From assembly GCF_000855665.1 (NCBI RefSeq), contig NZ_JXSS01000083.1:1-34482 (forward strand): a stretch of 34,482 bases of DNA, given 5' to 3'. Source of the DNA: Lysobacter sp. A03 (GTDB taxonomy: Bacteria > Pseudomonadota > Gammaproteobacteria > Xanthomonadales > Xanthomonadaceae). Both the position numbers and the translations under genes were made by a program. Under the pieces are notes generated by a model. It was given only the letters and a program-made list of their open reading frames with translations. It made no database searches and was not told the DNA's origin. Below are positions 1,104 through 10,532 of the stretch, in pieces (the first letter of the stretch is position 1; every line of letters begins with the position of its first letter).

Positions 1104-2798
1104 TTACGCGTTGGCCGCCTGGTGCACGCCGCGCATCGCCCGTCCCGACGGGTCCGCCGCATTGGCAAACGATGCATCCCACGCCAGCGCGGTCTCGGTC
1201 GAGCAGGCGATCGACTTGCCACCGGGCACCGTACGGGCGCAGACATCGCCGGGAAAATGCTGCTCGAACAGCTCGCGATACCAGTAACCCTCCTTGGTCA
1301 CGGGGGTGTTGATGGGAAATCGGGTTGCCGCATCCGCCAGCTGCGCGTCACTGACCATCGCTTCTGCGTGATCCTTGAGGCCGTCGATCCAGCCGTAGCC
1401 GACGCCGTCGCTGAACTGCTCCTTCTGCCGCCACAGGATCGAGTCGGGCAGGTAGCCCTCGAAGGCCTCGCGCAGCACCGCCTTCTCGATGCGAACCGTG
1501 CCGTCCGCGCGCATACCCACCATCTTGGCGCTGGCATCCATCTTCATGGCGACCTCCATGAAGGCCACGTCCAAGAACGGCACCCGCGGCTCCACGCCCC
1601 AGGCCATCATCGACTTGTTGGCACGCAGGCAGTCGTAGTTATGCAGCGCGTCGATCTTGCGCACCAGCTCCTCGTGGAACTCGCGCGCGTTGGGCGCCTT
1701 GTGGAAGTACAGGTAGCCGCCGAAGATCTCGTCGCTGCCCTCGCCCGAGAGGACCATCTTCACGCCCATCGCCTTGATCCGCCGCGCGAGCAGGAACATC
1801 GGGGTGGAGGCGCGGATGGTGGTGACGTCATAGGTCTCGATATGCCGGATCACCTCGGGAATGGCGTCAATACCCTCCTCCTGGGTGTAGGTGAAACCGT
1901 GGTGGACGGTGCCCAGCGCCTCGGCCGCGATCTCGGCAGCGGCCAGATCGGGGGAGCCTTCCAGCCCGATGGCGAACGAATGCAGTCGCGGCCACCACGC
2001 CTCGGCCTGGTCGTCCTCCTCGATGCGCTTGCGTGCGAACCGCGCGGCGCAGGCGGCGACCAGTGAGGAATCCAGCCCACCTGACAACAGCACGCCGTAC
2101 GGCACATCGCACATCAGCTGGCGATGCACGGCCGCCTCGAAGGCTTCGCGAAGCTCGGCCGGATCGACCCGAACGCCGACGGTGGCGGCGTGGTCACGCC
2201 ACGGCCGCTGGTAGTAACGGACCACTTCGCCGTGTGCGCTGTCGTAGAAATGCCCGGGTGGAAACTGGGCGACGTCATCGCAGATGTCGGCCAGCGCTTT
2301 CATCTCCGAGGCCACGCACAGGCGTCCGGCGGCATCGTGGCCCCAATACAGGGGCACCACGCCGATCGGATCGCGCGCGATCAGCACCCGCTGCGCGGCC
2401 CGATCCCACAACGCGAAGGCAAAGATGCCGTTGAGGCGGTTCAACCAGCCACCGATGTCGGCGTCCTCGCGGAACAGCGCGCTGATGACCTCGCAGTCCG
2501 ACTCGGTCTGGAAGTCGTAGGGCTGGCGCAGCGACGCTTTCAGCTCGCGGTGGTTGTAGATCTCGCCGTTGACCGCCAGCACCAGGTCGCCGTCGGCGGA
2601 GCGCATCGGCTGCGCGCCACCGGCCGGATCGACGATGGCCAGGCGCTCATGAACCAGGATCGCCGCCTCATCGACGTACACACCGCTCCAGTCCGGACCG
2701 CGGTGGCGTTGACGCCGGGAATGCTCAAGCGCGAGGGCGCGCAGCGGTTGCAGATCGTCACCGGGTTGCTGGCGGAAGATGCCGAGGATCGAACACAT
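1104..2798 (-). CDS. asnB: Asparagine synthetase B (glutamine-hydrolysing)
   Basis: 564 residues (E. coli AsnB 554). It converts aspartate, glutamine and ATP to asparagine, glutamate, AMP and pyrophosphate in the cytosol. Cys2 (MCSILGIF) is the N-terminal nucleophile of the class II glutaminase domain; RHRGPDWSG (32-40), ERLAIVDP (51-58) and NGEIYNH (77-83) are its glutamine-binding motifs. The synthetase domain has the ATP pyrophosphatase loop SGGLDSS (239-245), then MVLSGEGSDEIFGGYLYFHKAP and RVPFLD, all typical of AsnB. The ATG is fixed by Cys2 and by CAGGAG on the minus strand about 9 nt upstream. The gene stands alone, convergent with tpm and divergent from the M28 peptidase at 3174. Its 5' leader carries a terminator and an Asn-rich leader ORF (separate entries), so expression is probably attenuated according to charged tRNA-Asn supply. 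Confidence 0.96.
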   Translation of the reverse strand: MCSILGIFRQQPGDDLQPLRALALEHSRRQRHRGPDWSGVYVDEAAILVHERLAIVDPAGGAQPMRSADGDLVLAVNGEIYNHRELKASLRQPYDFQTESDCEVISALFREDADIGGWLNRLNGIFAFALWDRAAQRVLIARDPIGVVPLYWGHDAAGRLCVASEMKALADICDDVAQFPPGHFYDSAHGEVVRYYQRPWRDHAATVGVRVDPAELREAFEAAVHRQLMCDVPYGVLLSGGLDSSLVAACAARFARKRIEEDDQAEAWWPRLHSFAIGLEGSPDLAAAEIAAEALGTVHHGFTYTQEEGIDAIPEVIRHIETYDVTTIRASTPMFLLARRIKAMGVKMVLSGEGSDEIFGGYLYFHKAPNAREFHEELVRKIDALHNYDCLRANKSMMAWGVEPRVPFLDVAFMEVAMKMDASAKMVGMRADGTVRIEKAVLREAFEGYLPDSILWRQKEQFSDGVGYGWIDGLKDHAEAMVSDAQLADAATRFPINTPVTKEGYWYRELFEQHFPGDVCARTVPGGKSIACSTETALAWDASFANAADPSGRAMRGVHQAANA

Positions 2799-2830
2799 GG
2801 GGGGGAACTCCTGAAGGGAAAAAACTACGG

Positions 2831-2864
2831 AAAAAAAAGGCCCGCACTTCGCAGTGCAGGCCTT
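2831..2864 (-). terminator. Intrinsic terminator in the asnB leader (attenuator)
   Basis: On the minus strand AAGGCCTGCACT (2864-2853) pairs with AGTGCGGGCCTT (2848-2837) across a GCGA tetraloop: 12 bp with one G-U pair, followed by a run of eight T's (2838-2831), two of which are in the stem. It lies 32 nt upstream of the asnB ATG. No minus-strand gene ends here, because the next gene upstream (M28 peptidase, 3174) is divergent. The hairpin can therefore act only on transcripts started in the asnB leader. No T-run follows in the plus direction. Confidence 0.88.
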
Positions 2865-2910
2865 GGATTCGATTCGTGCGTTTTGTCGTACGCGCTAGTC
2901 GTCGGCCTGC
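2856..2910 (-). promoter_or_regulatory. Antiterminator pairing of the asnB attenuator
   Basis: GCAGGCC (2910-2904, inside the Pro-Gln-Ala codons of the leader ORF) is an exact complement of GGCCTGC (2862-2856) in the 5' arm of the terminator, so 7 GC-rich base pairs can form in place of the terminator. A ribosome stalled on the Asn codons (2936-2922) would leave GCAGGCC largely free and favour this pairing. A ribosome at the TAG (2897-2895) would cover it and allow termination. Complementarity is seen; the switch is inferred from known trp/his/thr attenuators. Confidence 0.7.
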
Positions 2911-3020
2911 GGGAGGCGGACGTTGTTATTCCAGTTGAGCTGAGCCGCACAATGCGTCGCACACGGCGTGGAACCGGTGACGAAGGACGCGAAGAAAATC
3001 TGGGCGGAAGCTGGACGCAT
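2895..3020 (-). CDS. Putative asnB leader peptide (Asn-rich, attenuator)
   Basis: Small ORF on the asnB strand, 41 codons plus TAG if started at ATG 3018-3020; an in-frame ATG at 3036-3038 would give 47. Its C-terminal part reads CAAQLNWNNNVRLPQADD: four Asn codons out of five (AAC TGG AAT AAC AAC, 2936-2922), 8 codons before the stop. No other role for such a short peptide is apparent. Position and composition match leader peptides of amino-acid operons, in which the ribosome stalls at codons for the end product. After the stop (2895) come 30 nt and then an intrinsic terminator. The initiation site is the weak point: the ATG directly follows a 7-bp palindrome whose GGGGGA is the only SD-like sequence. 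Asn-codon clustering and the matching RNA elements are seen; translation is inferred. Confidence 0.7.
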   Translation of the reverse strand: MRPASAQIFFASFVTGSTPCATHCAAQLNWNNNVRLPQADD

Positions 3021-3037
3021 TGGGGGAGCTTCCCCCA
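3021..3037. repeat. Perfect 7-bp palindrome in the asnB / M28 divergent region
   Basis: TGGGGGA-GCT-TCCCCCA, arms of 7 bp with a 3-nt spacer. It lies between the two possible start codons of the asnB leader ORF on the minus strand, and about 135 nt upstream of the M28 peptidase on the plus strand. It could be an RNA hairpin covering the leader's SD-like GGGGGA, or an operator. No T-run follows, so it is not an intrinsic terminator. Confidence 0.6.
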
Positions 3038-3173
3038 TCCGGATGCCACACGCAAGCGCTCATCCAGCTCGCCGGCGCTGCTGACCCGCGAAAACTGATG
3101 GGTCCACTGATCCTCGCCGCATGCCGGCGCCGTTATCATCGGCAGACCGTTCCGGCCCGGCCTGGGGAAATAG

Positions 3174-5495
3174 ATGCCGCACAAGAGACGATCCGCTGGA
3201 GCGGGTTCGCACGCAGACGCGATGCAGTCGGAAACAGCGCGCTGGGCATCGCTGGCCGTGATCGTGTTGTTTGTGCTTTCCGCTGCCTTGTCACTGCGCG
3301 GCGACCAGCCGCCTGCCAGCGTCGGGATCGATGCGCCGGCCACCGTGTTTTCGGCGTCGCGCGCAGCCACGGTGCTGGCACGGGTGCTCGGCGACGAGCA
3401 GCCCCACCCCACCGGCAGCGCTGCCAATGCGCGCGTCCGCGATCGCATCGTCGCCGAGCTGGCCCGCATCGGTGTACAGGCACAGGTCCAACGCCGGTTT
3501 GCCTGCGGCGCCAGCACCTGCGCGACGGTGGAGAATATCGTCGCCCGGATTCCGGGCACGAATGCGGACCAGGCCGTCCTACTGGCGGCCCACTACGACT
3601 CTGTGGGCGCAGGACCGGGGGCCTCCGACGATGGCGCCGGCGTTGCCACCCTGATTGAATCGGCGCGGGCCCTGCTCGCCGGCCCGCCACTGGCCCGCGA
3701 CGTCTGGCTTCTGGCCAGCGACGGCGAGGAGCTAGGCCTGATTGGTGCGGAAGCCTTCGTGCGCGAGCCCGAGTTCACCCGTATCGCGACGGTGATCAAC
3801 CTGGAGGCCCGCGGCACGCGCGGTGCGAGCCTGTTGATCGAAACCCAGCCCGGCAACGCGCAGATCATCGCGGCACTGCGCCGCGCGCTGCCTCGCGCCA
3901 GCGGCTCATCGCTGGACTACGAAATCTACCGCAGCCTGCCCAACGACACCGACTTCACGGTGTTCAGCCGCGAGGGGCGCGAGGGCCTGAACTTTGCCTG
4001 GGCGAAGGGCGCGGCGCGCTACCACACCCCGCTGGACAACCTCGCCCATCTGGACCGGGGCTCGCTGCAGCATCACGGCGACAACGCATTGGCGATGACG
4101 CGCGAGCTGGCGGGACGGGCTCCCTCCGCCACAGCAGATTCCGCAGGCGGTGTCGCTCAGGACGCGGTGTTTTTCAACCTGTTTGGCGCGACCGTTGCCG
4201 CGTGGCCGGTGATGCTTAATCCGTTCCTGCTCGCCCTTGGACTGGCGCTGTGGCTCGCACTTGGCGTGCGCCTGGTCCGACGCGGTTCGCGTACGGCAAC
4301 GTTGGCGTTCGCGTCGATTGCGGTGCTGGCACTCCTGGCGGTCTTGGCCGGACTGGGCTGGGGAGTCCACGTGCTGTTGCAGGCGTTGGGCGCAATGGCG
4401 GCGATGTGGACCGCGCAGAGCGCGCTGCTGGTCGCCACGTTCGTGGCCCTGGCCTTGCCGCCGATGCTGCTGGGCGGCTACGCGGTGCAGCGCTGGTGCG
4501 GCCTGCCGGCCCTCGCCTTGGCGACCTTGTTGCCGTTTGCGATCGTCGCGGCGGCGGCGGTGGCCGCAATGCCGGGAGCCAGCTACCTCGGGCTGCTGCC
4601 GCTGCTGGCGGCGGGCATCTGCGCACACCTCGTCCTCGGGCGACCCGTACTCTGGTCAGCTGTCGCCGCTGTTGTGGCGGCCGGCCTCTGGTTTCCGTAC
4701 GCGGTGGATTCGTACCCGGCCATCGGGCATCCCGGTTTGCCTGCAACCACGCTGTTGAGCGGCGTCATCGTGCTGCCGTTGTTGCCCGCGCTACTGAGCC
4801 TCCGCCGCGCGGTGTGGGCGCTGGCGCTCGCAGGTGTGGCGGTGACGTTCGCATGCGCGCTGCTCGCCCTCGCCCGACCCGCGTTCGATGCGGACGTGCC
4901 GCGCCCGGCGAACCTGTTGTATGCGGGTGACAGCGACGCCGCACGGCTGTACCTGAAACCACTTGCGACGATGCCGGTGGGCTTCATGCGCCAGGCAGGC
5001 TTTGCGGACGTCTCCCGTCCGGTCACGGCGTGGTTGGGGTGGGGGTATCCGAGCGCGAACGGGCCGACACTGCCGGCGCCTTCTCTGCAGGTCGAGTCCG
5101 ACGGCATCCGCGATGGCCGACGCCACATCGCGATTCGCGTGACGTCCACCCGAAATGCCAAGGAAGGAGGATTGGTGCTGCCGGGCGACATCGACGTGGC
5201 CTCCATCCGGGTCCAGGGGCAAGCGTTGGCGCCGTCGCGCTGGCACGCCGAGCCAACGCGCTGGCGCCGTATAGCCCTCGTAGGACTACCCTTGGAAGGC
5301 GCGGTGTTCGAGTTCGAAACAGCGCCCGGACGGAATCTGGAGGTGTACGGCTATGACCGCTCGGCCGGCCTCCCGCCGGTGATGGAGCCCGCGGCCCGTG
5401 CACGCGATGCGGTGGCGATGCCGATCCACGGCGGCGATTCGACGATCGCGTGGCAACGCATCGAGGTAGCCGCGACACCGCAGTCGCAAAAATGA
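3174..5495 (+). CDS. Polytopic membrane M28 family zinc metallopeptidase
   Basis: 773 residues. A first membrane segment (about 25-42) precedes an M28 aminopeptidase-type domain with all expected zinc ligands and catalytic residues: His140 (AAHYDS), Asp152 (SDDGAG), Glu185/Glu186 (SDGEELG), Glu211 (INLEARG) and His284 (ARYHTPLDN). After about residue 340 come some eight hydrophobic helices and then a soluble C-terminal region of about 190 residues. This resembles the membrane-anchored M28 group that includes eukaryotic FXNA/ERMP1, with the catalytic domain probably periplasmic here. The ATG at 3174 has GGGGA about 5 nt upstream; a second in-frame ATG at 3222 is possible. The gene diverges from asnB and ends 4 nt before the converging dapE stop. 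The substrate cannot be told from sequence; an exopeptidase on small peptides is the family expectation. Confidence 0.87.
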   Translation: MPHKRRSAGAGSHADAMQSETARWASLAVIVLFVLSAALSLRGDQPPASVGIDAPATVFSASRAATVLARVLGDEQPHPTGSAANARVRDRIVAELARIGVQAQVQRRFACGASTCATVENIVARIPGTNADQAVLLAAHYDSVGAGPGASDDGAGVATLIESARALLAGPPLARDVWLLASDGEELGLIGAEAFVREPEFTRIATVINLEARGTRGASLLIETQPGNAQIIAALRRALPRASGSSLDYEIYRSLPNDTDFTVFSREGREGLNFAWAKGAARYHTPLDNLAHLDRGSLQHHGDNALAMTRELAGRAPSATADSAGGVAQDAVFFNLFGATVAAWPVMLNPFLLALGLALWLALGVRLVRRGSRTATLAFASIAVLALLAVLAGLGWGVHVLLQALGAMAAMWTAQSALLVATFVALALPPMLLGGYAVQRWCGLPALALATLLPFAIVAAAAVAAMPGASYLGLLPLLAAGICAHLVLGRPVLWSAVAAVVAAGLWFPYAVDSYPAIGHPGLPATTLLSGVIVLPLLPALLSLRRAVWALALAGVAVTFACALLALARPAFDADVPRPANLLYAGDSDAARLYLKPLATMPVGFMRQAGFADVSRPVTAWLGWGYPSANGPTLPAPSLQVESDGIRDGRRHIAIRVTSTRNAKEGGLVLPGDIDVASIRVQGQALAPSRWHAEPTRWRRIALVGLPLEGAVFEFETAPGRNLEVYGYDRSAGLPPVMEPAARARDAVAMPIHGGDSTIAWQRIEVAATPQSQK

Positions 5496-5499
5496 AGGC

Positions 5500-6645
5500 T
5501 CACGCGCCCGTTGGCACCAGCAGCTTCTCGACCAGCGCGTGATACAGATCGGGCAGCGCTTCCAGATCGGCCACAGCCACGTTCTCGTCCACCTGGTGGA
5601 TGCTGGCATTCACCGGGCCGACCTCTATGCACTGGGTCCCCAGCGTCGCGATGAAGCGCGCATCGGACGTGCCACCGCCGGTGCTTTCTTCCGGCGCTTC
5701 GCCGCACAGCTCGGTCAGCACCTCGCGCGCGGCCTGCCGCAGCGGACCCTCCGGGGTAAAGAATGGCTCGCCGCTGCGATGCCAGTGGATCGCGTAATCA
5801 AGCCCGTGCGCGCGCAGCACCTGCTCGCACTCCTGCTCCAGGGCGGTGGCGTTCCAGGTCGGGTTGTAGCGCAGGTTGAATACCACTTGCAGGGCACCGG
5901 GAATCACGTTGCTCGCACCGGTGCCCGCTCGGATGTTGCTGATCTGCAGGCTGGTGGGCGGAAAGGTTTCGAAGCCCTCGTCCCAGCGTCGCGCCGTCAG
6001 CGCCGCCAGTGCCGGCAGCGCCTGGTGAACCGGATTGCGCGCCTTGTCCGGGTAGGCGACATGGCCCTGGATGCCGCGCACGTCGAGGGTCGCAGTGAGG
6101 CTGCCGCGCCGACCGACGCGCAGCAGATCGCCCAGCTTCGTGGTCGAGGATGGCTCGCCGGTGATGCACCAGTCGATGCGCTCACCGCGCTCACGGAACA
6201 GCTCGGTGACCCGGCGCACGCCGTCGATCGCGTCGCCCTCCTCATCGGAGGTCAGCAACAGGGCCAGCCGGCCGGCGTGGTGGGGATGCGCAGCGACGAA
6301 GCGCTCGGCGGCGATGACGAACGCGGCAACGCTGCCCTTCATGTCCGCCGCGCCGCGCCCGTACAGCACGCCGTCGCGGATCTCCGGCGCAAACGGGTCA
6401 CTGGTCCAGTCCGCTACGGGACCTGGGGGCACCACGTCGGTATGGCCCAACAGCACCAGCGTTGGCCCGTCGCCCTCACCGTGTGTCGCCCACAGGTTGT
6501 CGACCGCGCCGAAGCGCAGGTGCTCGCAGGCGAAGCCGGCGCGTTGCAGGCGCTCGCTGATCAGCGCCTGGCAGCCGGCATCGTCGGGCGTCACCGAGGC
6601 CCTGCTGATCAACTCACACGTAAGCGCGAGAACGTCGCTGCTCAT
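5500..6645 (-). CDS. dapE: Succinyl-diaminopimelate desuccinylase
   Basis: 381 residues (E. coli 375). It hydrolyses N-succinyl-LL-2,6-diaminopimelate to LL-diaminopimelate and succinate in the succinylase branch of lysine/DAP synthesis, which supplies peptidoglycan and lysine. Di-zinc M20 peptidase features: His68 and Asp70 ([11 protein letters not shown]), bridging Asp101 (GRGAADMKG), general base Glu135 with Glu136 (TSDEEGDA), Glu164 (ITGEPS), and a C-terminal His in [20 protein letters not shown] is the substrate-binding loop near the end. The ATG overlaps the yffB stop by 4 nt (ATGA), as expected for the last gene of map-glnD-dapD-yffB-dapE. It converges on the M28 gene across only 4 nt, with no visible terminator between them. 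Confidence 0.97.
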
Positions 6646-6998
6646 TGGCCGAAGCGCTGCTTGAAACCATTGTCACTGAAGCGCTGGGAGATCTGGCCGT
6701 CGTCGGTGACCACGACCGGGCGTCGGATCAACTGCGGGTACTCCTTGAGCAGCAACTTCCACTCCGCGTCCGAGCCCGGATTTTTGCGCGACTCCGGCAG
6801 CTGCCGCCAGGTGGTTGAGGATTTGTTGATCATCGCCTCCCAGCCGCCCAGCTTTTCCTGCCATTCCACCAGCGTCTCCGGCGACTGCCGGTTGTCGCGG
6901 TAATCGATGAATTCGTGGGGAATCCCGAATCGGTCCAGCCACTTGCGCGCCTTGCGGCAGGTGTCGCAGTTTGCCAAGCCGTAGAGGGTGGTGGTCAT
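6642..6998 (-). CDS. yffB: ArsC/Spx-family thiol reductase-like protein YffB
   Basis: 118 residues, the usual length of the ArsC/Spx thioredoxin-fold family. It begins [20 protein letters not shown], with the family cysteine at position 11, and has the cis-proline region IRRPVVV at about 92-98. E. coli yffB is likewise directly upstream of dapE, and the STTWRQL and [12 protein letters not shown] segments match YffB rather than true arsenate reductases. The role in E. coli is uncertain (a glutathione-dependent thiol reductase has been proposed). This copy has a second cysteine (C11-D-T-C14), where E. coli YffB, as I recall it, has Ile, giving a CxxC pair able to form a disulfide. It starts 10 nt after the dapD stop and overlaps dapE by 4 nt. 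Confidence 0.85.
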
Positions 6999-7008
6999 GG
7001 TTGCCTCC

Positions 7009-7875
7009 TCAGTCGGCCAGCCCGCGCAGCAGGTCGTTGATGCTGGTCTTGGAGCGGGTCCGCTCGTCCACCTGCTTGACGATCACCGCGCAGTACAGGG
7101 AGTGCGAGCCGTCTGCCGCCGGCAACTGCCCGGAGACCACGACGCTGTAGGGCGGCACGCTGCCGTAGCTGACCTCGCCGGTGGCGCGGTTGTAGACGCG
7201 GGTGCTCTGGCCCAGGAACACGCCCATACCGATCACGCTGTGATGGCCGACCACGAAGCCCTCGACCACCTCCGAGCGCGCGCCGATGAAGCAGTGGTCC
7301 TCGATGATCGTGGGCGTGGCCTGCAGCGGCTCCAACACGCCGCCGATACCGGCGCCGCCGGACAGGTGACAGTGCTTGCCGATCTGCGCGCAGGAACCGA
7401 CGGTCGCCCAGGTGTCCACCATGGTCCCCTCGCCCACGTAGGCGCCGATGTTGACGAAGCTGGGCATCAGCACCACGTCGCGGCCGATATGGGCGCCGCG
7501 GCGGACGATCGCACCGGGCACGACGCGCGCGCCAACCTCGCGGAATGCGGCCTCGTCGAAGTCGCCAAAACGCGCCGGGATCTTGTCCCAGAACGGTGCA
7601 GGCCGGGCATCGATGACGCCCATCTCCTGGGTGCGGAAGTACAGCAACACCGCCTTCTTGAGCCATTCATTGACCTTCCAGCCATCGCTGCCGTCAGGCT
7701 CGGCGACGCGCAGCTCGCCCGACTCGATGCCGGCAATGGCGCGCTCGACCATCGGCGTGACGGAGCCGGCGAGTTCGTCGGCGGCAAGGCTTTCGCGACG
7801 CTCGAAGGCGTCTTCGATCACGGCCCGAAGCTCGTCGGTGCTGGCAGGGTTCAGGGCGGTGTTGCTGGGGTTCAC
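7009..7875 (-). CDS. dapD: 2,3,4,5-tetrahydropyridine-2,6-dicarboxylate N-succinyltransferase
   Basis: 288 residues (E. coli 274). It transfers succinyl from succinyl-CoA to tetrahydrodipicolinate, the committed step of the succinylase DAP/lysine pathway whose later step is dapE, two genes downstream. An N-terminal helical domain (about 1-95) is followed by a left-handed parallel beta-helix of hexapeptide repeats (about 115-240): [59 protein letters not shown]. The segment [12 protein letters not shown] and the Lys/Arg-rich tail ([15 protein letters not shown]) are characteristic of DapD. The ATG overlaps the glnD stop by 4 nt. The first 10 or so residues ([10 protein letters not shown]) exceed the E. 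coli start, but no better start with an SD is visible. Confidence 0.97.
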
Positions 7876-10532
7876 AGCGGTTCTCCTTCAAGACAGGCAA
7901 GCAATGCGGCGCTTAATGCCTGTTGGCGGTCCGCGTCCAATGGCTGGCTGTGGCCGTGGGCATCGGTAGCGGTGATCTGGAAGACGTCCTCGGCGCGCGC
8001 GCCGAAGGTGGCGATGCGCGCGTCGTGGACGCGCATGTGCTGCTGGCGCAGGATCTGCGCGACATCGGCGAGCAGCCCCGGACGATCGGTGCACACCAGG
8101 CTGAGCGTGGTCCGCCCGTCGCCGGCATCGTCGAAGCCGATCGTGGGCGCGATGCGGAAGTGTCGCAGGTGCCGCGGCTGGGTGCGCTTGGCAGGGCGGA
8201 TGTCATCCAGCGGGCCTTCCAGCGCCAGCGACAGGCGCTCTGCGACGTCGGCGGCGACGGGTGCCCGACGCGAGTCGCCGGGGATGACTTCAAAGGTGTC
8301 GAAAATGGTGCCGTTGGGGCCGTCCAGCACGCGAGCCTGCTGGATCTCCAGCCCGCAGCGGTCGAGCACGGCAACGATCGCGGCGAACAGGCCGTCACGG
8401 TCCAGCGAGTGCACGAACACCTCCAGCGCGCCGGTATCGGCGGCCACCGGGCGCACCCTGACCTTGGTCCGTCCTGGCTCCAACCGATGCAGCGCGGCCG
8501 CCTGCCAGGCCAGCTGATACGGACGACCGCGCTGGAAGCCGGCCTCGGGCATGCGCGCGAACAGCTCGGCAATCGTCGCCTCGTCCATGCCCTGGGCGGC
8601 CAGCAGGCCTTCCACCGCCTGCCGCGTTTCGGCGATGTGCTCGGTGACTGCAACCGGATTTTCCAGCCCGCGCCGCAGCGCCAGTCGCGTCGCGGTGTAG
8701 AGGTCGGCCATCAGCCGGTTCTTCCACGCATTCCACAGCTTGGGCGAGGTGCCGGCGATGTCGGCGCAGGTCAGCAGATAGAGATGGTCCAGCCGCTCGC
8801 GATCACCGACCGCGGTGGCGAAGCCGTGGATCACGTCGGGATCGGCGATGTCCTGTTTCTGCGCGGTGATCGACATCAGCAGATGCTTTCGCACCAGCCA
8901 CTCCACCAGCGCGGTGTCCGCCTCGCCCAGGCCGATGGTGGTGCAGAACTCGCGCGCGTCCTCGGCGCCGAGCTCGGAATGATTGCCGCCGCGACCCTTG
9001 GCGATGTCATGGAACAGCCCCGCCAGCAACAGCAACTCGGGCTTGCGCAGCCGCGGCCAGACTTCGTGGGCCAGCGCAAAGCGTTCGCTGGACTCAGGGC
9101 TTTCAAAGGAAGCAATGTTCTTCAGTACGGCCAGCGTGTGTTGATCGACGGTATAGACGTGGAACAGGTCGAACTGCATCCGCCCGGAGACCTTCAGGAA
9201 GGCGGGTATCCAGCGTCCCAGGACGCCCAGCCGCGCCATCCGCGTCAGCGTGCGGACCGGCTGCTCGCCGCGCAGCAGGCGCAGGAACCGCTGGTGCAAT
9301 TCGGGACTGGCGCTGGCGAAGTCGGGAAAGCTGGGCAGCGCTTCGGCCAATGCACGCGCGGTATGCGAATGCAATCCGCTCAACTCGCCGCGCGCGGCCC
9401 AGGTCGCGAACAGCGCGAAGACCTCGCCGGGATCGCGTGGCCAGTCGGGATCGCGTGCGGCCAGGTAACCGCGGCGCAGCTCGAACAGCTCGTCCAACGG
9501 CTCCGGCTCGGCCTCACCTTCCAATTGCTCTTCAAACCGCTGCAGCAGGCGTTCGCCAATGCGCAGCACCAGCGACGCGTTGCGGTAAAAGCCCTGCATC
9601 ATCTGCTCCACGGCCAGGGTCCCGCCAACGTCCTCAAATCCCAGTCGGGTGGCGAGCAGCTTCTGGTAATCGAATCGCAGGCGCTCCTCGCGCTTGCCTG
9701 CGACCAGATGCAGGCCGTAGCGGAGCCGGGCCAGCGCGCGACGCTCACGCTCCAGCGTCGCCACCTCGTCGGCGCCCATCTGGCCGAACGCCACCAGCGA
9801 CTCCATGTCCGCGGTACCGATGATGCGCAGCGCCATCCAGTTGAGGGTCTGCACGTCGCGCAAACCGCCCGGGCCTTCCTTCAGGTTGGGCTCGAGGTTG
9901 TCGGCGGTGTCGTCGAAACGCGCGTGGCGCTCACGCAATTCCAGCCGCTTGGCCTCGAAGAACTGCTGTGGTGGCCAGACCAATCGCGGCGACACTGCGC
10001 TCTGCAACTCGCGGCGCTCGTGCTCGTTGGCCATCAGCGGCCGCGCTTCCAGCAGGGCGGTCAGTACTGTGATGTCCTCGATGGATGCTTCGGTGCACTG
10101 CTCCAGCGAACGCACCGCGTGGCCGACCGGCAGGCCGCAGTCCCACAGCAGGGCAAACAGGCGCGCCAGGTCCTCGGCGTGGGCGAGCGATTGGGCAGGC
10201 TCGGCCAGCACCAGCAAGTCGATGTCGGACTGCGGATACAGCTCCCCGCGCCCGTAGCCACCGACGGCAAACAGCGCCAGCTCGGCGGCCGACGGAATGC
10301 AGCGCTGCCAGGCGGCCTGGACGACTGCGTCGACCTCGGCAGCGCGCTCGGCCAGCAGTCGGTCGATCTCGGCATCCGCGTCGAAACGGCTGGCGAACGC
10401 GGCATCGGCGTCTGCCAGATGCTCGCGGGCGTGCGCCGCCCATTCCGCGTCCTGACCAAGCTCGGCGCGGTCGGGACCCTCGGTCACTCCCGGGAACGAG
10501 GCCCGTTCGCTCCCCGGGCCCGGAGATTTCAT
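7872..10532 (-). CDS. glnD: Bifunctional [protein-PII] uridylyltransferase / uridylyl-removing enzyme
   Basis: 886 residues (E. coli 890). It senses glutamine and reversibly uridylylates PII proteins (GlnB/GlnK), thereby controlling glutamine synthetase and NtrBC-type nitrogen regulation. Domains in order: nucleotidyltransferase with [19 protein letters not shown] (91-109; Asp103 and Asp105 are the metal-binding pair); a GlnD-type linker; an HD phosphohydrolase domain with [16 protein letters not shown] (about 504-519), giving the uridylyl-removing activity; and two C-terminal ACT domains (about 705-780 and 815-886, the second with [16 protein letters not shown]), which bind glutamine. All catalytic motifs are intact. 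The ATG overlaps the map stop by 4 nt and the TGA overlaps dapD by 4 nt, the same order as E. coli map-glnD-dapD. Confidence 0.97.

Follow-up and report, generated by a model that had tools for sequence, protein, structure and literature searches.

A probable asparagine-reading transcription attenuator ahead of asnB in Lysobacter sp. A03 and its relatives

The stretch of DNA analysed here (the window: 34,482 nt of contig NZ_JXSS01000083.1 from Lysobacter sp. A03) carries on its minus strand a gene for a glutamine-hydrolysing asparagine synthase B (asnB), preceded by a short open reading frame (ORF) whose translation ends in QLNWNNNVRLPQADD and by a hairpin followed by a run of T's, the latter lying 32 nt ahead of the asnB ATG (2798). 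The individual features are collected in Table 1. Their coordinates (leader, arms, terminator and T run) had been given in an initial annotation, and direct re-reading found all of them correct, together with the exact complementarity of GCAGGCC to the 5' arm of the terminator; a third hairpin (arms 1 and 2), overlooked there, completes the classical 1:2 / 2:3 / 3:4 set. A terminator scan returned two overlapping matches (vs 0.6 in shuffles), and a 91-nt segment of the window folds at a z-score of -3.72. The gene upstream of the element (3174-5495) is divergent from asnB. More broadly, asnB and this divergent, peptidase-like gene are clustered with dapE, an arsC-like gene, dapD and glnD (window 1104-10532), and at three related loci (L025-L027) the end of dapE was seen by eye to lie directly upstream of the leader.

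Table 1. Features of the element in front of asnB (positions in the window)
Feature	Position	Strand	Description	Basis
-35-like box	3055-3050	-	TTGCGT, 17 nt ahead of the -10-like box	fits TTGC-17/18-(T/C)ANNNT of other leaders; weak
-10-like box	3032-3027	-	GAAGCT, 6 nt ahead of the leader ATG (3020)	poor TATAAT match; position in relatives supports
Leader peptide ORF	3020-2895	-	41 codons plus stop TAG (2897-2895)	direct reading
Sensor codons	2936-2922	-	Asn-Trp-Asn-Asn-Asn	direct reading; Asn enrichment in relatives
Asn codons of the leader	2936-2934, 2930-2928, 2927-2925, 2924-2922	-		
Arm 1	2922-2914	-	CGTCCGCCT; partner 2908-2900	97.0% of helix cells paired; CG to UA double change at one pair
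Arm 2	2910-2900	-	GCAGGCC (2910-2904) with arm 3; AGGCCGACG (2908-2900) with arm 1	
Arm 3	2862-2856	-	GGCCTGC, common to antiterminator and terminator	exact complement of GCAGGCC
Terminator hairpin (arms 3 and 4)	2864-2837	-	12-bp stem, GCGA loop	
T run after the terminator stem	2838-2831	-	eight T's	direct reading
Shine-Dalgarno-like motif of asnB	2812-2808	-	AGGAG	direct reading
asnB, asparagine synthase B (glutamine-hydrolysing)	2798-1104	-		NCBIfam: NF006949 847 bits, TIGR01536 426 bits, both above cut-off

The conservation of this arrangement was followed in the family Xanthomonadaceae, in which AsnB (E <= 1e-150) was recovered from 135 of 149 genomes, yielding 129 upstream regions at first and five more later (L264-L268), with one locus (L017) placed at a contig end. 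Counting Asn codons over the final 40 codons of the best short ORF located at most 400 nt from asnB, at least four were found in 112/129 regions (against 1/129 reverse complements and 23/645 dinucleotide shuffles), at least three in 116/129 (against 10/129 and 82/645, respectively) and at least five in 99/129. The ends of the leader peptides form groups (e.g. NNNNRNNASLPRAGD, NNNNRNNLRANNRARPMRVCD, NRNNANNRNAERRPRR and NNNNNRRPPSRGPTA), and the homologous leader of the nearest relative (L006) ends in QLNSNNNVRLPQADD. The expectation of the initial annotation that relatives would keep the Asn codons, the complementary arm and the terminator was checked, and all three are retained.

The 13 regions with fewer than three Asn codons comprise L124-L134, in which AsnB is 63-66% identical to that of the window, and L042 and L049. 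Among the later additions, L266-L268 have a leader, which is absent from L264 (AsnB 64%) and L265 (62%). Overall (and with L083 removed by eye), the leader accompanies 118 of the 121 family AsnB genes that are at least 69% identical and none of the 13 at 62-66%; since these 13 (L124-L134, L264 and L265) are all devoid of it, we suggest that they represent a second asnB lineage under other control. At L042 (with L275) and L049 (with L276) we observed by eye that inserted, partly repeat-like sequence parts a leader-like sequence from asnB, and such insertions should alter the control of the gene. A further exception belongs to the window's own genus: in genome G003 (L083, L274) asnB is present and neither leader nor terminator was visible on inspection (although L083 passes the Asn-codon count), which would represent loss or replacement.

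The spacing between the elements was assessed in 108 of the 129 regions (those with leader and terminator by rule; the 21 lacking either were left out), in which the segment that pairs best with the 5' arm of the terminator measures 5-9 nt. Counted from the first base of the final Asn codon, arm 2 starts at 14 nt in 61/108 leaders (as in the window, 2924 to 2910) and at 13-19 nt in 95/108, where choosing the best pairing inflates the complementarity itself, not the constancy of the offset, to which shared ancestry adds. Given the ribosome footprint, a 14-nt offset places arm 2 just past a ribosome whose A site is occupied by the last Asn codon. The offset holds whatever the distance from arm 2 to the stop, which is mostly 10-26 nt (108 leaders). 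If a footprint is assumed for a ribosome at the stop, arm 2 would start within it in 79 of 95 leaders and upstream of it in 16, and would end within it in 93. The spacing agrees with the claim that a ribosome stalled on the Asn codons would leave GCAGGCC mostly free and one at the stop would hide it, and the near-fixed 14-nt step reads like an evolutionary footprint of the leading edge of a stalled ribosome.

These regularities bear on a very unlikely alternative, namely that the short ORF encodes a functional small protein, with the hairpin acting as its terminator or that of the upstream gene, and with asnB transcribed from its own promoter further downstream. The position of the ORF is indeed conserved, and terminators commonly separate transcription units; however, peptide length (18-66 residues among leaders with a scored promoter) and N-termini vary freely, whereas the Asn codons are kept at a fixed distance from arm 2, and arms 1 and 2 would serve nothing in a plain terminator. 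A terminator of the upstream gene is further at odds with the divergent orientation of that gene in the window. We hold it to be even less probable that the Asn-rich nascent peptide itself arrests the ribosome, with free asparagine or another signal (and not slow decoding) as the input: our computations do not separate nascent-chain arrest from stalling at the codon level, but the residues that flank the Asn codons differ among groups (NNRNNASLPRAGD, NNRARPMRVCD, NNNNANNNTRIDGWAGV), unlike those of an arrest motif.

Pairing was evaluated in an alignment of 21 leaders (A1), in which 96.0% of cells are paired for the terminator, 92.5% for the antiterminator (vs 24-42% in slid registers) and 97.0% for the 1:2 hairpin, as obtained with RNAalifold. 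The compensatory changes that had been named as prospective support were found as double changes at six terminator pairs, one antiterminator pair (GC in 12 rows, AU in nine) and one 1:2 pair (CG to UA in the window and its nearest relative). In eight of the nine AU rows (window included), the shared base of arm 3 is limited to a U-G pair on the terminator side, as one would predict for an arm with two partners to satisfy. For the antiterminator this support did not extend to a test controlled by the AsnB tree (64 of 90 rows; 26 were dropped as having no core motif, arm or terminator), where the covarying pair changed twice on each arm and both independent pairs of changes agree (2/2, p 0.5), and another pair gave a mixed outcome; the tree-controlled covariation rests on two events, which are too sparse for significance. 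When all 95 leaders were submitted together, RNAalifold recovered the terminator alone because the spacers align poorly, and group alignments were used in place of this one. The 1:2 and terminator hairpins were also predicted for another Xanthomonadaceae group of 29 sequences and, with different sequence, in three groups of Rhodanobacteraceae (10, 9 and 3 sequences).

In folding computations the antiterminator forms before arm 4 exists in 93/95 leaders and the terminator forms with a ribosome at the stop in 94/95, but this support is weak, given that shuffled spacers pair equally well with arm 3 in 797/1900 controls. As the terminator wins at equilibrium in 92/95 leaders, the switch would have to be kinetic, as it is in trp.

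A search for promoters (TTGNNN-(16 to 19 nt)-NANNNT, 3-59 nt ahead of in-frame ATGs) located such a promoter-like pair 6-7 nt ahead of the ATG in 108/145 leaders, against 6/2900 shuffles. Many Rhodanobacteraceae leaders are without a promoter score, and a generic scan did not list the TTGCGT/GAAGCT pair of the window. Of 78 leaders counted (those with a CAGGAT-type -10 box were excluded because CAGGAT contains AGGA), one has a Shine-Dalgarno-like motif ahead of its start codon; asnB has such a motif at 114 of 119 loci. Since the promoter pair lies 6-7 nt from the ATG and Shine-Dalgarno motifs are scarce, the leader mRNA is probably leaderless, its transcription starting at the leader ATG, which is a trait that the initial annotation had missed. 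A start downstream of the leader ORF, regarded there as incompatible with attenuation, is not what the promoter placement predicts.

Taken together, the cluster of Asn codons, the three mutually exclusive hairpins, their spacing, their conservation and the placement of the promoter, all drawn from the sequence and its comparison among relatives, support the earlier interpretation, and we consider it very likely that the element is a ribosome-mediated (trp-type) transcription attenuator that reads asparagine ahead of asnB. It combines a leader ORF with Asn codons, an intrinsic terminator before the structural gene, an antiterminator that excludes this terminator, a 1:2 hairpin that takes up the antiterminator arm, a spacing fitted to ribosomes stalled or at the stop, and a downstream gene that makes the sensed amino acid. 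That the ribosome stalls, that the terminator works in vivo and which way asnB responds are inferences from these features. Transcription would start at the leader ATG, and a ribosome would load on the leaderless mRNA and trail the RNA polymerase. With ample charged tRNA-Asn, this ribosome would pass the Asn codons and reach the stop, where it would cover arm 2 or let arms 1 and 2 pair; with arm 2 so engaged, arm 3 would pair with arm 4, the terminator would form and asnB would not be transcribed. With charged tRNA-Asn scarce, the ribosome would stall on the Asn codons and cover arm 1, leaving arm 2 just outside its leading edge, and the free arm 2 would take arm 3, so that the terminator would be blocked and asnB transcribed.

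Trp-type attenuators are known from the trp, his, thr, ilv, leu and phe leaders. Typically (in the passages cited), a leader rich in codons for the product amino acid is followed by alternative hairpins and a terminator (PMC7298713, PMC4117421), and the element described here resembles them in its product-codon-rich leader, its 1:2, 2:3 and 3:4 hairpins and its intrinsic terminator before a biosynthetic gene; it differs in reading asparagine and preceding asnB, a pairing absent from the open literature searched. In that literature no asparagine leader-peptide attenuator was found (a mention in a subscription journal is possible), and within it the asparagine specificity is the new part. As regards the probable leaderless start, the cited passages describe the Sinorhizobium meliloti trpL attenuator as having a leader ORF that begins at the transcription start (PMC7298713), and report for Streptomyces lividans leucine, tryptophan, alanine, isoleucine, methionine and threonine leaders, several of them leaderless (PMC8079986). 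As far as these passages go, the likeness lies in a leader ORF at the transcription start (predicted here, with 5' ends mapped there), and the difference in the amino acids read and in the phyla or classes concerned, which are other than that of the window. With the Asn-specific T-box leaders of Firmicutes, the proposed mechanism would share tRNA-Asn charging as input and the choice between terminator and antiterminator. Those leaders bind uncharged tRNA directly and contain no translated ORF, unlike the window element, which has one and gives no Rfam match. Least probable of all, to the point of being scarcely credible, is that the hairpins sense something other than translation (through T-box-like tRNA binding or as a riboswitch): a terminator with an antiterminator would suit any such input, but a scan of the window returned no Rfam 15 family at gathering score, and this reading would leave the Asn codons, and their distance from arm 2, without explanation.

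The attenuator was further traced beyond the family in a wider AsnB search, from which 80 loci were kept; at the first 44 of these (L135-L178, AsnB 66-80% identical) a short ORF with at least three Asn codons is present in 40. By record title, the leader-bearing loci include Xanthomonas, Stenotrophomonas, Pseudoxanthomonas, Lysobacter, Luteimonas and Thermomonas, as well as Arenimonas, Rhodanobacter, Dyella, Frateuria and Fulvimonas; the Rhodanobacteraceae carry the leader too, with other sequences. The four loci without it (L143, L151, L175 and L178) are all titled outside the order, and no leader was found before asnB in L143 (80% identical, titled as a Holophagales MAG), L151 (75%, Rhodococcus sp. 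RD6.2) and L175 (75%, a Deltaproteobacteria MAG). Within the order, the survey covered 46 of the 53 genomes outside the family that gave a match, and an Asn ORF was found at all 17 examined loci with AsnB at 74% or above; two of these 17 (L272 and L273) have only three and four Asn codons, each followed by a terminator-like hairpin. Among the order loci with AsnB at 60-69% (n=29), one (L252) appeared by eye to be leader-like with a terminator. Two further candidates (L261 and L279) have four Asn codons in an ORF and were rejected as not leader-like by eye. Loci from Vibrio, Photobacterium, Shewanella, Pseudoalteromonas, Colwellia and similar genera showed no consistent Asn leader, and the Asn-containing ORFs of some AT-rich gammaproteobacterial loci (L191) were set aside as not common to congeners.

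Among the genomes tested, asparaginyl-tRNA synthetase (AsnRS) is present in 23/23 and GatB in 0/23; the transamidation route should therefore be missing from these cells, whose Asn-tRNA would have to be made from free asparagine. We find it likely that a leaderless asparagine attenuator is shared by Xanthomonadaceae and Rhodanobacteraceae, is probably ancestral to both, and, in cells that lack GatCAB, ties asparagine synthesis directly to the charging of tRNA-Asn. If so, the range of ribosome-mediated attenuation would extend to asparagine in a large number of genera. The short ORFs ahead of asnB would gain a function, Gammaproteobacteria would have a likely case of a leaderless leader peptide, and the element could serve as a small reporter for tRNA-Asn charging. 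The Asn codons of the leaders are AAT in 74/166 cases (45%), vs 29/255 (11%) in asnB of the same 28 relatives (L006-L034), an excess that may reflect sharper sensing or RNA constraints.

Occurrence elsewhere in genomes was surveyed with a covariance model (R1) built from A1. In the window's own genome this model scored 96.6 bits at asnB, and no other site exceeded 28 bits; among 275 genomes of the class, 46 had a match at E <= 0.01, all of them at or below 30.5 bits except the window's own. None of the 36 other R1 loci (own genome and class) has an Asn-rich leader beside the match on its strand, an absence that carries little weight because, of four family genomes (G000, G009, G028 and G069), the asnB leader was found only in G000 (R1 misses other sequence groups and diverged versions). 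A crude look for codon runs in six genomes revealed no classical His leader before hisG and no Phe leader before pheS. At the six hisG loci (L321-L326), which have no run of His codons, an upstream ORF that we take to resemble a TrpR/YerC-like repressor ends near hisG. At the pheS loci (L327-L332), all six genomes have a hairpin of the GGGGAAGG..CCTTCCCC type (or GGGAGAAGG..CCTTCTCCC) followed by T's shortly before pheS, which is perhaps another attenuator or the terminator of the upstream gene.
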